53,357 bases of DNA from Rhodospirillaceae bacterium (lineage in GTDB: Bacteria; Pseudomonadota; Alphaproteobacteria; UBA6615): the NCBI GenBank assembly GCA_018667335.1, contig JABIVD010000054.1:1-53357 (forward strand). Direction: 5' to 3'. The notes beneath the pieces were generated by a model, which was given only the letters and a program-made list of their open reading frames with translations, did not search any database and was not told the origin of the DNA. Below, in pieces: positions 5,982 to 31,369 of the stretch. Numbering within the stretch: position 1 is the first letter of the stretch; each line of letters starts with the position of its first letter. A program made the translations under genes and the position numbers.

Positions 5982-6215
5982 ATGGGCACGTTTTCAATCT
6001 GGCATTGGCTCATCGTCCTCGTCGTTGTGCTTGTCCTTTTCGGCGGACGGGGCAAAATTCCCAGCCTTATGGGCGACGTTGCCAAGGGTATTAAGTCCTT
6101 CAAAAGCAATATGAAGGACGAGGGTGCAAAAGCTGAATCGAGCAAGCTCGAGGAAGACACCACGTCAACGACAGCTACAACGGCTGCGCGCGAAGACGAG
6201 ACGGCCAAGAGCTAG
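5982..6215 (+). CDS. tatA: Sec-independent translocase protein TatA
   Basis: The 77-residue protein has the TatA layout: a short N-terminal transmembrane helix ([23 protein letters not shown], quoted in part: [14 protein letters not shown]), the FGG hinge, then an amphipathic helix ([18 protein letters not shown]) and a charged, Thr/Ser-rich tail. TatA multimers form the size-variable pore that exports folded proteins bearing twin-arginine signals. It is followed by tatB and tatC in the standard order, 56 bases and then a 4-base overlap, so the three probably form one transcript. Confidence 0.95.
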
Positions 6216-25855: not shown

Positions 25856-28726
25856 TCACGCCCGTTTCTTCGTCTTCTTCGCCAGTGCCGGCAGGTAGGG
25901 GGCGAGGAAGTCGCCGGTGAAGCTGCGTTTGACCGCGCAGATGTCTTCCGGGGTGCCGGAGGCGACGACCTCGCCGCCCTTGTCGCCACCCTCGGGGCCG
26001 AGGTCGATGATCCAGTCGGCGGTCTTGATGACCTCCAGATTGTGCTCGATCACCACCACCGTGTTGCCCTGTTCGACGAGTGCGTGGAGCACCTCGAGCA
26101 GCTTGCGCACGTCGTGATAGTGCAGGCCGGTCGTCGGCTCATCGAGAATGTACAGCGTCTTGCCCGTGGCCCGGCGTGACAGCTCCTTGGCGAGCTTCAC
26201 CCGCTGGGCCTCGCCGCCCGACAGGGTGGTGGCCGCCTGGCCCACATGGACGTAGCTGAGGCCGACCCGCTCGAGGGTCTCCAGCTTGTCCCGGATCGAC
26301 GGCACGGCCTTGAAGAACTCCCGGCCTTCCTCGACGGTCATGTCCAGCACGTCGGCGATGGACTTGTCCCGGTAGAGGATTTCCAGGGTCTCGCGGTTGT
26401 AGCGCTTGCCCTGACACACGTCGCATTCGACATACACATCCGGCAGGAAATGCATCTCGATCTTGATGACGCCGTCGCCCTGGCAGGCCTCGCAGCGCCC
26501 GCCCTTCACGTTGAACGAGAAGCGGCCCGGCTTGTAGCCCCGCGCCTTGGATTCCGGCAGGCCGGTGAACCAGTCCCGGATCGGCGTGAAGGCGCCGGTG
26601 TAGGTCGCGGGATTGGACCGCGGCGTGCGGCCGATGGGTGACTGGTCGATGTCGATGACCTTGTCGAAATGGTCGAGGCCCTCGATGGCCGCGTGGGCTC
26701 CCGGTGCCGCGCGTGAGCCGTAAATATGCCGCGCGGCGGCGTTGTACAGCGTGTCGAGCACCAGGGTGGACTTGCCCGAGCCCGAGACCCCGGTGACGCA
26801 GGTGAAGGTGCCGACAGGGATTTCTGCGGTCACGTCCTGCAGATTGTTCGAGGTCGCGCCGATGACCTTGAGGACCTGGCCCTTCTTGCCCGGGCGGCGT
26901 TCGTCCGGGATGGGAACCTGCTCGATGCCGGTGAGATATTTCGCGGTCAGGCTCTTGCTGACCTGCTGCATCACCTTCTTGGGCGTGCCCTGGGCCACGA
27001 CCTCGCCGCCATGTATGCCCGCGCCGGGGCCCATGTCGATCAGATAGTCGGCGGCGCGGATCGCGTCCTCGTCATGCTCGACGACGATCACGGTGTTGCC
27101 CAGATCGCGCAGGCGCCTGAGGGTCTCGAGCAGGCGGGCATTGTCGCGCTGATGCAGGCCGATGGACGGCTCGTCGAGGACATACAGCACACCGGTCAGG
27201 CCGGAGCCGATCTGGGAGGCCAGCCGGATCCGCTGGCTCTCGCCGCCCGACAGGGTGCCCGACTTGCGGTCGAGGGTGAGGTACTCAAGCCCCACATCGT
27301 TGAGGAAGCCGAGCCGCTCGTTGATCTCGCGCAGGATCCGGTCGGCGATCTCGCGCTCCTTGGGGGTCAGGTGGTTCTCCAGATCGAGGAACCAGGCGCC
27401 GGCCGCCGCGATCGACATCTCGGTCGTCGCGCTGACATGCTTGCCGTTGATCCGCACCGCCAGCGCCTCGGGCTTCAAACGCGCACCGGCGCAGGTCTCA
27501 CAAACAGACGTCACCTGATACTTGCCGATCTCCTCGCGCGCCCAGCTGCTCTCGGTCTCCCGGTAGCGGCGCTCCAGGTTCATGACCACGCCCTCGAAGG
27601 GCTTCTTGGTCTCGTATGTGCGCAGCCCGTCGTCGTATTTCATCGTGATCGAGGTCTTGCCCGAGCCGAACAACACCGCCCCTTGCACCTTCTCGGGCAG
27701 TTCAGACCAGGCGTCGGCCGCAGAGGCCTTGTAGTGGCGCGCGATCGCTTCGAGGGTCTGGGCGTAGTAGGGGCTGGAAGAGTTGGACCAGGGGGCCACC
27801 GCACCGTCGCGCAGGCTCTTGGTCCGGTCCGGCACCACCAGATCGGGGTCGACCACAACCTTGGTGCCCAGCCCGTCGCAGGCCGGACAGGCGCCGAACG
27901 GGTTGTTGAACGAGAACAGCCGCGGCTCGATCTCCTCGATCGTGAAGCCGGACACGGGACAGGCGAACTTGGACGAGAAGATCGTCTGCTCGCCGCCGTC
28001 GGCGTTCTCGGCAAATACGAGCCCGTCGGCCAACTCCAGCGCGGTCTCGATGGAATCCGCAAGCCGGGTTTCGATGCCCGGGCGCACCACGATCCGGTCC
28101 ACCACCACGGCGATGTCGTGCTTGAAGTTCTTGTCGAGTGTGGGCGCATCGGCGATCTCGAACATCTCGCCGTCGATTTTCACCCGCTGGAAGCCGCGTT
28201 TCTGCAGACCCGCCAGTTCCTTGCGGTACTCGCCCTTGCGGCCGCGCACGATGGGGGCGAGCAGATACAACCGCGTGCCTTCGTCCATCTCCATGGTGCG
28301 GTCGACCATCTGGCTGACCGACTGGGCCTCGATGGGCAGGCCCGTGGCGGGCGAGTAGGGGATGCCGACCCGCGCATAGAGCAGGCGCAGGTAATCGTAG
28401 ATCTCGGTCACCGTGCCCACGGTCGAGCGCGGGTTCCGGCTGGTCGTCTTCTGCTCGATGGAGATCGCCGGCGACAGGCCCTCGATCGAGTCCACATCCG
28501 GCTTCTGCATCAGCTCCAGAAACTGGCGCGCATAGGCCGACAGGCTCTCGACATAGCGCCGCTGCCCCTCGGCATAGATCGTATCGAAGGCGAGGGACGA
28601 CTTGCCCGATCCCGACAGCCCGGTGATCACCACCAGGGAATCCCGGGGGAGCGATACATCGACGTTACGCAAATTGTGCTCGCGGGCGCCGCGAACGACG
28701 ATTTTGTTGTTTATTGCCAAAGCCAA
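25856..28726 (-). CDS. uvrA: Excinuclease ABC subunit A
   Basis: UvrA is the damage-sensing ATPase of nucleotide excision repair. The 956-residue protein has both ABC modules: Walker [20 protein letters not shown] and [18 protein letters not shown], signatures [18 protein letters not shown] and [16 protein letters not shown], and zinc sites around CPACDGLG and [18 protein letters not shown]. The start is odd: translation begins with TTG at 28726 (the first codons are TTG GCT TTG GCA) and no ATG or GTG is available before the stop of the upstream cassette gene, whose stop codon is only 6 bases away. The gene therefore seems to have been placed downstream of an inserted cassette and to depend on it for transcription. 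Confidence 0.96.
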
Positions 28727-28732
28727 ATACTC

Positions 28733-29182
28733 TTAGAAAATGCCGGAAAATTTTGCTCGAAACGCATCTTCTAATCCAGATCGGAACTCTGCGGCTTTTG
28801 TTGAGATAGCCGGAAGACGCTCAACGTCCACGGCACGATGCGCAACACCGTACGGACCCAACGTAATGGCGTCGCGCAGGTGTACTAAGTCCGTAAATGA
28901 ATCTCCGAACTGCCACGCGGTTTCACGGAGTTCGGTTAAATCAGACCCGATCCGACTAGAAAGCATATCAATCTTGAATTTATGGCGGTCCAATTTCGGG
29001 TCCGTTGAGGCAGCGCTCCAATATTCGGCGCCGGTCTCTTCAATCTCGTTTGCTAAATCGCGAATACGATCTACAGCGGACCGAACTTCGTTCCGTCGGT
29101 GTGAATATTTCGCAACGATGAATGTGGCCAGCGCACCAAGGAAGACGCCGAGTGCAAATTCGACAATCCCACTACCCTCCAA
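28733..29182 (-). CDS. Membrane-anchored coiled-coil protein of the uvrA-ssb cassette
   Basis: The 149-residue protein has one N-terminal transmembrane helix (VEFALGVFLGALATFIVAKY), then a basic stop-transfer stretch (SHRRNEVR) and a long helical cytoplasmic part, including VDRIRDLANEIEETGAEYWS and the conserved-looking FTDLVHLRDAITLG block. The start is TTG 29182, which overlaps the end of the DUF4325 gene; a good GGAGGG lies just inside, so a later non-ATG start is possible. I do not recognise a named family. Position as third gene of the ATPase-DUF4325 cassette suggests it is the membrane-bound effector or anchor. It ends 6 bases before uvrA. Confidence 0.65.
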   Translation of the reverse strand: MEGSGIVEFALGVFLGALATFIVAKYSHRRNEVRSAVDRIRDLANEIEETGAEYWSAASTDPKLDRHKFKIDMLSSRIGSDLTELRETAWQFGDSFTDLVHLRDAITLGPYGVAHRAVDVERLPAISTKAAEFRSGLEDAFRAKFSGIF

Positions 29183-29531
29183 CCGTCACATCAACTTTCG
29201 GCGCGTCTAAATCGGCTTCAATTGAGGCCTCTTCTACGTATGACCAAATTTGAGCAATCCACGTTTCGTCACGGGACATCAATTCAATCAGCGCCTTGAG
29301 CGTCGACAGTGAAAAGTGTTCCTCGCGAATAAGGCCGCCAAAAGCTTCCTCAAGAAACGAAGACCCGTATCCTTCCGTGTCGTTCAGATCGATGACAGTT
29401 TTCTCACCGATGCGCAGTGTCGGGACTAGAAAGTCCTGTCGAAACTGTTCTCCACTAAAATCTCCTTCGTGCCGAAACCTCGGTCCCGGAACATCAGTGA
29501 AGTCTTCCGATATGTGAATCCTCGTGACCAT
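29172..29531 (-). CDS. DUF4325 STAS-like protein of the cassette
   Basis: ATG 29531, preceded by GAGGAATTTG, gives 119 residues; a TTG two codons upstream is less likely. The core KTVIDLNDTEGYGSSFLEEAFGGLIR (cited in part; residues 57-69 are SSFLEEAFGGLIR) is the mark of the DUF4325 STAS-like family, which resembles anti-sigma-factor antagonists such as SpoIIAA. The Ser pair at 57-58 is at the position where STAS proteins are phosphorylated, which is an inference by analogy. The gene overlaps the upstream ATPase gene by 38 bases and the next gene by 11, so the three are tightly coupled. Confidence 0.8.
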   Translation of the reverse strand: MVTRIHISEDFTDVPGPRFRHEGDFSGEQFRQDFLVPTLRIGEKTVIDLNDTEGYGSSFLEEAFGGLIREEHFSLSTLKALIELMSRDETWIAQIWSYVEEASIEADLDAPKVDVTVGG

Positions 29532-30696
29532 CCTCAAATTCCTCGATCAATGCCTGCTGAGACACTTTCCATTGGATTAATGTACCACCTATGGATTTGG
29601 AGTGGTTCGCGATGTTTTCCACCCCGCCCGAATGATATGTGTATTCCCCGTAGCCACTAAGAATGCGCAGCCAACCATCATCACAAACATCCACAAAATC
29701 GCGTACATCCTTAAGGCCTCTGCCTCTGTGCGCCTGTTTGGTTCTAGACTCCCTCAACTCCATTGCGGCTTTGATCAAATTTCCATCGTTCCTAACTAGG
29801 CTAAATCGCTCCAGTAAACGCCCAATGGCAGTCCTTCCGTGCAAATGCGGAAGTGTTCGTGGAATGCCGACGCCCTGATCATAGAAGATGATCTGAAACT
29901 CTTTACGTTTATGGTCGACTGATCCCGCCATCCACCATCGATTTGTCATAACCGGGCAAGTGTTGGGTAAACCTTTCAGATACGCATGTTGAATCGCGTT
30001 ATTCATAGCCTCTGCCAGACCGGCAAACATACGTCCGCGAGCATGCTCGTTAACAGCGCCAGCGCCCGCTGTAAGTGCCACACGAAGCTGCTTTGCCAAT
30101 ACCGTCTTTGCTTCGTTGCTGGTGAAGTATCGAATGTATTCGATGTCTGTGTCTGCTGCAGTTTCGACATCAGTTAATGGCGGATGAACATCTAGCAGTT
30201 CGAAAAAACCAACCTGGTCCAAGACATTCGCGATGTCCGGATTCGTCGGATAAGTGCCGGTCAGCGAATTATGAAACCCACCGATCCGTCGACAACGGTA
30301 AAACTCCGCAGTTAGGTAGAGCATAGCCGCCGGACTTATTCTCTCCAAGGTATTGAAATCAATACAAACCTTTCGCCTGTGTTCAAACACCAAGGTCCTG
30401 ATGTCGTTAACAAACTGGACAACTTCCTCATAATTTCTCCGAAGACTGATATGGCGGGGAGCAGGAAGCATAATTGCTGACCCGATGGAAGTTTCTGCCA
30501 ATCCAGATGTTCTACTCAGAATGCCGGGAATTGCAGCTTGTCGATTGTTAAACTTCGCCCAGGCTAGTCGTTTACGGCGAAAATTTTTCCGTGTCCGCCT
30601 ATGTGCACTGCGTAAGCGTGCTTGATGCTGTTTCTGGCTGACATGTTTCATGGGCAATTCAGATCGCTGCAACCGGGGATGGACAAGTTTACCCAT
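29494..30696 (-). CDS. STAS-like/histidine-kinase-type ATPase of the cassette
   Basis: From ATG 30696 the protein is 400 residues; an alternative ATG lies at 30651. The first 60 residues are very rich in Arg and Lys and may bind nucleic acid. Residues 85-175 look STAS-like (KVCIDFNTLERISPAAMLYL). Residues 215-375 form a GHKL-type ATPase: N box AEAMNNAIQHAY (228-239), G1 FYDQGVGIP (271-279), G2 HRGRGLKDV (323-331) and GGTLIQW (370-376). There is no phosphoacceptor His domain, so it resembles anti-sigma or partner-switching kinases more than sensor kinases. Base composition is visibly AT-richer than in the flanking uvrA and ssb genes, suggesting acquisition. Confidence 0.78.
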   Translation of the reverse strand: MGKLVHPRLQRSELPMKHVSQKQHQARLRSAHRRTRKNFRRKRLAWAKFNNRQAAIPGILSRTSGLAETSIGSAIMLPAPRHISLRRNYEEVVQFVNDIRTLVFEHRRKVCIDFNTLERISPAAMLYLTAEFYRCRRIGGFHNSLTGTYPTNPDIANVLDQVGFFELLDVHPPLTDVETAADTDIEYIRYFTSNEAKTVLAKQLRVALTAGAGAVNEHARGRMFAGLAEAMNNAIQHAYLKGLPNTCPVMTNRWWMAGSVDHKRKEFQIIFYDQGVGIPRTLPHLHGRTAIGRLLERFSLVRNDGNLIKAAMELRESRTKQAHRGRGLKDVRDFVDVCDDGWLRILSGYGEYTYHSGGVENIANHSKSIGGTLIQWKVSQQALIEEFEDGHEDSHIGRLH

Positions 30697-30716
30697 GGGA
30701 TGACTTTTGCACGAAT

Positions 30717-30745
30717 TTGCATTGAGAACAAAACATGAATATCAT
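30717..30745 (+). promoter_or_regulatory. ssb promoter with LexA-like operator
   Basis: TTGCAT (30717-30722) and TATCAT (30740-30745) are 17 bases apart, a good sigma-70 promoter pointing to ssb. The spacer contains GAAC-N7-GAAT (30726-30740), one mismatch from the alphaproteobacterial LexA box GAAC-N7-GAAC (equivalent to GTTC-N7-GTTC). A repressor bound there would block the promoter. The operator lies 30 bases upstream of the cassette ATPase start on the other strand, so it could also control the cassette and, through it, uvrA. A distinct minus-strand promoter was not obvious. Confidence 0.6.
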
Positions 30746-30877: not shown

Positions 30878-31369
30878 ATGTCAGGCAGCGTTAACAAAGT
30901 CATGCTCGTTGGAAATCTGGGCCGCGACCCGGAAGTCCGCTCCATGCAGTCCGGTGACAAGGTCTGCAACCTGTCGGTTGCCACGTCCGAACGCTGGAAG
31001 GACCGCAATTCCGGTGAGATGCAGGAGAAGACCGAGTGGCATAGGGTGGTGATCTTCGACCAGAAGCTCATCGAAGTGGCTGAGAAGTACCTCCAGAAGG
31101 GCGCGAAAGTGTTCCTCGAGGGCCAGCTCCAGACCCGTAAATGGACTGACCAGTCCGGCCAGGAAAAGTACACGACCGAGGTTGTGTTGCAGCGTTTCCG
31201 CGGCCAGCTGGTCATGCTCGACAGTCGCGGCGGCCAGGGCCAGGGTGCCGGCGGCGGTGGCGGTGGCTATGATGCCGCACCGTCCTACGACCAGCAGCCC
31301 GCCATGGCAGCAGCCGGCGGTGGCGGCATGGGCGGCGGCGATGATCTGGACGACGAAATCCCGTTCTAG
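30878..31369 (+). CDS. ssb: Single-stranded DNA-binding protein
   Basis: SSB coats single-stranded DNA during replication and repair and recruits partners through its tail. The 163-residue protein has the OB-fold with [37 protein letters not shown] and [19 protein letters not shown] Gly/Gln-rich linker follows, and the protein ends with the acidic, Phe-terminated tip DDLDDEIPF that binds partner proteins. The leader of about 125 bases contains several small hairpins, for example GGGG-ATAA-CTCCCC near 30746. A terminator follows 12 bases after the stop. Confidence 0.96.

Follow-up and report, generated by a model that had tools for sequence, protein, structure and literature searches.

The window, by which the whole analysed stretch of 53,357 nucleotides is meant, carries uvrA and ssb on opposite strands, with a cassette of three genes between them. 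ssb (163 aa) occupies 30878..31369 on the plus strand. uvrA (956 aa, TTG start) lies at 25856..28726 on the minus strand, has an N-terminus different from that of sister species, and is the single full-length uvrA listed for the source genome (G000), an assembly of 62 contigs. The cassette genes share the strand of uvrA and include, from the ssb side, gene 1 (29494..30696), coding for a STAS-GHKL kinase of 400 aa; gene 2 (29172..29537), a DUF4325 STAS-like partner with a called TTG start; and gene 3 (28733..29182), a product of 149 aa with a called TTG start and one hydrophobic segment. As called, the three genes overlap one another, gene 2 overlapping gene 1, and the uvrA frame opens 6 bp past the gene 3 stop. 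The cassette spans about 2 kb and has a GC content of 0.48–0.52, compared with 0.65–0.67 in uvrA.

Positions 30717–30745 read TTGCATTGAGAACAAAACATGAATATCAT and contain the ssb promoter (plus strand), with a −35 box TTGCAT at 30717–30722, a 17-bp spacer and a −10 box TATCAT at 30740–30745. A consensus scan places this promoter at the same spot, as TTTGCA with an 18-bp spacer and 9/12 matches. The spacer holds most of a putative LexA-type operator at 30726..30740 (minus strand, ATTCATGTTTTGTTC; plus-strand form, GAACAAAACATGAAT), which overlaps the −10 box by one base. The earlier note had described a GAAC-N7-GAAT box between the two ssb promoter elements and close to the start of the cassette ATPase, and the sequence is as described; the called ATG of gene 1 (30696) is 29 bases from the operator. 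The ATG codons of gene 1 and ssb are 181 bp apart, and the operator sits at the cassette end of this interval.

Alphaproteobacterial LexA binds the direct repeat GTTC-N7-GTTC. On the minus strand the operator is ATTC-N7-GTTC, differing from the repeat at one base, in one half-site (ATTC). The strict repeat was found 0 times in the window against 1.95 expected from shuffles, and the variant with one G-to-A change was found twice, at the operator and at 6215. By weight matrix the operator scored 23.6 bits, the runner-up among 106,678 window positions 10.9 bits, and none of 40 block shuffles scored as high as the operator. The matrix was trained on 17 sites, including 12 lexA boxes of the family (strict repeat, quarter weight each) and five sites of the source genome, and its score is partly circular, the latter five having come from a search with the operator itself. 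Because these five were picked by likeness to the operator, conservation is a stronger argument than the score.

A box is present within 400 bp 5′ of ssb in 18/23 family genomes with an ssb match (source genome counted). In 17 of these 18 it has one register, immediately 5′ of the −10 box, and in G018 it is placed otherwise; no box was found within 400 bp 5′ of ssb in G004, G008, G010, G016, and G019. Within the genus, 6/7 genomes have it (all genus genomes searched counted). In G004, of the same genus, the box has decayed to GACC-N7-AAAT and the uvrA-ssb interval is still empty (L018). Across the whole source genome GTTC-N7-GTTC occurs 120 times, versus 35 for the reversed pattern. The genome has lexA (above the cut-off) with its own box, and similar boxes accompany recA, comM/yifB, a PA0069-type radical SAM gene and a probable imuA (ImuA match of 60.1 bits, under the cut-off of 150). 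One more LexA-like box, at which 1 base of 16 differs from the ssb box, lies just 5′ of lepA (L098; G000:C27:105559-105574); lepA is not known as a usual SOS gene.

A chance occurrence of the box is ruled out by the strict and one-off counts, the matrix, the conservation, and the genome-wide excess over the reversed pattern. Its recurrence in front of ssb across the family supports 30726–30740 as a LexA-type operator older than the cassette. Lying in a promoter spacer and being one base from the consensus, the box might alternatively be a conserved promoter element unrelated to LexA; the matrix score, the conservation and the likeness to the lexA, recA, and comM boxes of the same genome make this hardly credible.

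The earlier note stated that uvrA and ssb are often divergent and share an SOS box, and this arrangement is borne out in the family. In 15/24 genomes the two genes are divergent with an empty interval (166–332 bp from the ssb start to the UvrA match), and the box is present in 10 of the 15; six intervals are filled, and three could not be scored (G009 has no ssb, G018 and G022 meet contig ends). Among five empty-interval genomes that were measured, the box is 108–124 bp from the uvrA ATG in four, and G004 is boxless. In relatives a putative uvrA −35 box, TTGTTC, is inside the operator and is followed 17 bp on by a putative −10 box TATCCA, TATTCA, TGTCCA or TGTTAC, both as read from the sequences. 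As the −35 box lies inside the operator, one operator would serve both promoters, and a divergent pair with one shared operator is supported as the ancestral state. The uvrA-ssb SOS locus of E. coli and Vibrionaceae is similar, being divergent with one shared LexA site. The divergent uvrA-ssb SOS locus of Sinorhizobium meliloti has reportedly been studied too.

At least three different inserts have been acquired by the interval in this family. These are the kinase cassette in the source genome, an Amidohydro_2 gene in G003, G005, and G006 (L041, L040, and L042, respectively), and, in G011 and G023 (L045 and L044), an isocitrate dehydrogenase gene towards ssb with a LysR-type gene towards uvrA. 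The last pair separates uvrA from ssb with its box by about 2.8 kb. In the uvrA tree the source genome groups with G003, G005, and G006 (support 81/86) and the latter three group together (91/95); the amidohydrolase gene therefore came after the split, or was replaced in the source genome. The kinase was not found in any of the 59 other genomes searched.

The leader of uvrA is kept before the gene in G003, G005, and G006, with pairwise alignment scores of 111–179. In the source genome the corresponding scores are 17–23, which is noise (shuffled means 18–19). G011 retains the leader block TGTCCACTGGCCTTTTG, and its whole leader scores only 22–34, near the shuffled maximum. UvrA of the source genome starts with LALAINNK- (28702–28726, TTG start), against MQKKIVVRG in relatives of the same genus, and this altered N-terminus is evidently a scar of the insertion. 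Since the leader is absent and the UvrA start altered, the cassette is read as having replaced the stretch from beside the operator through the −10 box, leader, and first codons of uvrA. Neither a target-site duplication nor a terminal repeat was recognised at the cassette ends. The comparison of this interval in related genomes, proposed in the earlier note, supports both an ancestral box and a cassette insertion in the source genome, and the note's suggestion that insertion beside uvrA left the operator in front of the cassette agrees with the displaced uvrA leader.

A mis-joining of the cassette to uvrA and ssb during assembly would produce the same picture, and the 62 contigs and the lack of the kinase in other genomes of the search would suit it. 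It is very improbable, as both flanks have their counterparts, ordered as expected, in the sister species, the last cassette frame stops just before that of uvrA, and five more family genomes have other inserts in the same interval, from which it follows that insertion there happens. A comparable event is described in Vibrio fischeri, in which a bacteriophage insertion splits uvrA and ssb and, according to the accessible part of the report, both genes keep LexA sites (PMC3323433). In the present locus, by contrast, the insert lies between a single operator and uvrA, the leader is replaced, and no second box was seen by uvrA.

A candidate promoter for the cassette and uvrA lies at 30703..30731 (minus strand), with the −35 box TTGTTC at 30731–30726, a 17-bp spacer and a −10 box AAAAGT at 30708–30703. 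Its −10 box matches 3/6 positions, so this promoter is weak on paper; the inherited −35 box with the weak AAAAGT would nonetheless be the obvious candidate promoter of gene 1. If the ATG at 30696 is right, a promoter upstream of it starts at or crosses the operator, and LexA should therefore affect it. Gene order and leader loss are seen directly, and because the cassette separates the box from uvrA, whose leader it has displaced, the simplest reading is that the cassette and uvrA form one transcription unit beside the operator. Their joint induction by DNA damage is likely.

According to the main competing reading, the operator regulates ssb only, and a promoter inside the cassette or at its border drives the cassette and uvrA, so that uvrA has left the SOS regulon. 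The native −10 region of uvrA is lost and its replacement is poor, and displacement of uvrA from the ssb box seems to be tolerated in G011 and G023. Between 28500 and 31000, both strands included, five sigma-70-like sites were found, whereas shuffles gave 2.2 (sd 1.3); one of the five is on the minus strand within gene 1 (30295–30268). A gene 1 start at 30696 would, on the other hand, leave little room (29 bp) for a LexA-insensitive upstream promoter, and escape of uvrA from SOS control is considered unlikely, if worth keeping in mind. A terminator-like site in gene 3 on the cassette strand also counts against a single unit; such sites are no commoner here than in shuffles.

The gene 1 product combines a STAS-like part at its N-terminus with a GHKL ATPase part. 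The Pfam HATPase_c_2 match is sub-threshold (22.9 bits, cut-off 27.4), and Pfam finds no HTH domain on the kinase. The structural model has a pLDDT of 80; Foldseek gave no match under E 0.001, with the GHKL proteins TRAP1 (E 1.3e-3, probability 0.98) and SpoIIAB (E 2.3e-3, probability 1.00) at the top of its list. The kinase profile compared with PDB sequences found RsbW (8e-4) and SpoIIAB (0.011). The N-box, G1 and G2 motifs are intact, and E229, N233, D273, G275, G325, G327, and T372 are invariant in 65/65 aligned kinases and in 8/8 of a diverse set. Three tryptophans, W254, W255, and W376, are identical in 65/65 kinases of the viral set and in 7, 7, and 8 of 8, respectively, in the diverse set. 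They are not known to belong to the usual GHKL motifs.

Gene 2 encodes 121 aa, in which DUF4325 (PF14213, E 2.6e-12) is the only Pfam domain. A model of 117 residues (pLDDT 95.6) ends with one helix past the STAS-like part; its fold matches are weak, RsbS at E 0.23 and RsbV at Z 5.4, the latter tied with unrelated chains, and no VapS entry was listed by the fold searches. The motif Gly-Ser-Ser-Phe places its first Ser at the start of a helix (S56 counted from MTRIH, S55 in the model). This Ser was found in 67/67 members of the viral set, for which the scan pattern would have accepted S, P or R, and in 6/8 of the diverse set, the others having Pro or Arg; the second Ser is present in 8/8. The gene 3 product is predicted to be a small membrane protein, with a hydrophobic segment at residues 6–24 of mean hydropathy 2.29. 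Pfam recognised no domain and no PIN match in it, and 1/20 of its homologues had a marginal PIN_4 match (E 0.03). PADLOC and NCBIfam gave nothing usable for the cassette genes; a Cas8a/Csx13 assignment of gene 3 was rejected at 13.7 bits, below the NCBIfam cut-off of 47.4.

Two published kinase-STAS systems resemble the cassette. CapK, a kinase of HTH-STAS-GHKL architecture, is switched on by ssDNA and phosphorylates CapS, a STAS repressor; the two regulate immune operons, and mitomycin induction via CapK requires uvrA and uvrB (PMC13373217, EMBO J 2026, as far as accessible). In the same accessible part, VapK-VapS-VapC is described as a kinase, a STAS antitoxin and a PIN toxin that protect against one phage, and activation of VapK by ssDNA appears there without direct demonstration (PMC13373217). 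With the fragment printed in that source, a vapKSC locus was found in Rahnella bruchi.

The profile of the cassette kinase aligned with both domains of Rahnella VapK (probability 94, E 1.7e-7). Rahnella VapS hits DUF4325 (2.5e-17) and is followed by the PIN protein. By hhalign the match of the DUF4325 profile to VapS is weak (probability 17), and its best PDB match, at only E 0.051, is the VapS of the paper. VapKSC and the cassette share the order of kinase, STAS partner, and third gene, a kinase with STAS followed by GHKL, and a partner assigned to Pfam DUF4325, the first Ser of gene 2 aligning with S48 of VapS. They differ in the third gene, which codes for a PIN nuclease in VapKSC and for a small protein with a single hydrophobic segment in the cassette, and in the stretch before the STAS part, of about 75 residues in the cassette kinase and few in Rahnella VapK. 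Conservation would be expected for the presumed ssDNA aromatic residue and was not found. Rahnella F57, taken as the equivalent of VapK F54, aligns with Y127 of the cassette kinase, and ssDNA sensing by this kinase is not secured because the Y127 column is aromatic in only 9/65 homologues.

CapKS is like the cassette in pairing a STAS-GHKL kinase with a STAS substrate, and its published trigger would fit the locus (PMC13373217, accessible part). It is unlike it in that CapS has a winged helix after STAS, for which gene 2 is too short and which Pfam does not find there. With gene 2 short and lacking a winged helix and the kinase lacking HTH, the pair is unlike a repressor pair. SpoIIAB and RsbW, with partners SpoIIAA and RsbV, share with gene 1 the kinase fold and catalytic motifs and act on a STAS-like substrate. 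In contrast to their systems, the module has no sigma factor, and its gene 3 encodes a predicted membrane protein. Membership in CapKS proper is rejected, since gene 2 has no winged-helix domain, and so is membership in VapKSC proper, since the third gene is not a VapC-like PIN nuclease. As judged by sequence comparison, the cassette is a sister architecture of VapKSC with a predicted membrane protein in the place of VapC.

Modules of this type occur in phages, plasmids, and scattered chromosomes. A first contig scan with the kinase yielded zero confirmed copies. The viral set comprises the best 80 of 251 confirmed contigs, near-duplicates included (66 distinct partners), and a kinase-like ORF followed by DUF4325 was found in 76 of these 80 loci. 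The four exceptions are L119, L137, L183 (the contig begins there), and L195 (no partner ORF recovered). A third ORF is present in 70 of the 76, and 44 passed the hydrophobicity cut. The same gene order is seen in two phage or prophage records and four plasmids, and a fifth plasmid has the first two genes annotated.

Among bacterial genomes, the class search matched 22. Twelve of them had weak partial matches, presumably to other GHKL proteins, and were set aside; the source genome and nine strong copies among 384 other genomes of the class were kept. Eight more were found among 397 other genomes in a phylum sample, and one in G800, where the module has the order of G258. A cut-off of 1e-20 was used for the phylum sample, for the G800 search and for a search of another class, in which 48 genomes gave no copy besides the already known one in G534. 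The module is near phage integrases in G064, G393, G656, and G800, among prophage-like genes in G073 (with an ssb) and G465, beside an MmeI-type enzyme in G202 and beside an HsdR-type gene in G228. Further copies follow a folC-like gene in G425 and a sigma-70 gene in G534, and that of G301 follows lepA at a distance of 739 bp. Nothing telling was recognised near those of G207, G296, G489, G658, G691, and G738, G489 having a transposase-like frame. In G258 the three-gene module follows uvrB after 21 bp, in the same orientation (L219; G258:C6, 5198–9137).

The stretches examined around the 18 other genomic copies (1.5 kb on each side in G489, more elsewhere where the contig allowed) show no copy situated between uvrA and ssb. 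The alpha-type LexA box was found in 0/81 regions upstream of other copies, in which about two one-off sites are expected from shuffles; one region has CTGT-N8-ACAG and one has GAAC-N4-GTTC. The 81 regions comprise 60 viral ones, six from phages or plasmids, and those of 15 among the 18 genomic copies (L240, L241, and L242 were left out for unclear starts); only about 11 of the 81 are clearly alphaproteobacterial. Nine genomic copies examined separately upstream likewise lacked the alpha-type box. General SOS regulation of the cassette is thus unsupported, and SOS control would be peculiar to the source genome. The earlier note had held that carriage of the cassette outside SOS loci in relatives would tell against its proposal; such carriage was found, and it speaks against SOS control as a general property and leaves the proposed capture at uvrA in the source genome untouched.

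These copies bear also on the possibility that the module parks opportunistically and uses housekeeping promoters, its place at uvrA being functionally meaningless, which would be compatible with SOS control of the cassette. The chromosomal copies behind uvrB, the folC-like gene, lepA and the sigma-70 gene fit it, as do the amidohydrolase gene and the isocitrate dehydrogenase-LysR pair taken up by the same interval in relatives and the lack of the alpha-type box elsewhere. Nucleotide excision repair neighbours in 2/19 genomic copies (uvrA in the source genome, uvrB in G258) would, however, be unlikely by random landing, a comparison that is post hoc and in which only uvrB is independent. Opportunistic parking deserves serious consideration, at somewhat less than even chances.

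The favoured reading, regarded as probable from sequence and analogy, is that an acquired three-gene module was captured beside the LexA operator, forms one damage-responsive unit with uvrA and contains a partner switch like that of VapKSC. A horizontally acquired module would have entered between the ancestral operator and uvrA, and the exchange of the uvrA −10 box, leader, and first codons would have brought the kinase, the STAS partner, the membrane protein, and uvrA into one transcript. On DNA damage and cleavage of LexA, ssb on one side and the cassette with uvrA on the other would rise together. By homology with VapK-VapS-VapC, the STAS protein may keep the effector inactive at rest; ssDNA derived from damage would activate the kinase, which would phosphorylate a serine of the STAS protein, and the freed effector, the small membrane protein, might slow or kill the cell, as in phage-defence and toxin-antitoxin systems. 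Because mitomycin induction through CapK depends on UvrA and UvrB, the operon may tie kinase supply to the very repair activity by which the kinase is triggered.

Two results are new by comparison of sequences: the cassette is identified as a phage-type kinase-STAS-membrane module akin to VapKSC, and the uvrA leader is seen to have been replaced. Neither a module with a membrane protein nor a capture at uvrA was found described in the accessible literature, subscription journals being mostly outside it. A mobile, probably defence-related signalling module would have taken over the promoter region of a core repair gene, placing a homologue of an ssDNA-activated kinase directly before uvrA, whose product the published relative needs for activation. 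The copies outline a phage and plasmid module family in which a predicted membrane protein takes the place of the effector. A more speculative extension, which is rather improbable, is a doubly gated circuit, in which LexA sets the supply of a membrane-acting kinase-STAS module and ssDNA left by UvrAB sets its activity, the module being transcribed together with uvrA and facing ssb. If this were true, SSB would compete for the same ssDNA, repair by UvrA and SSB would come first and persisting ssDNA would trip the module, and the membrane protein would represent a further effector class of the CapKS/VapKSC kind, common in phages.
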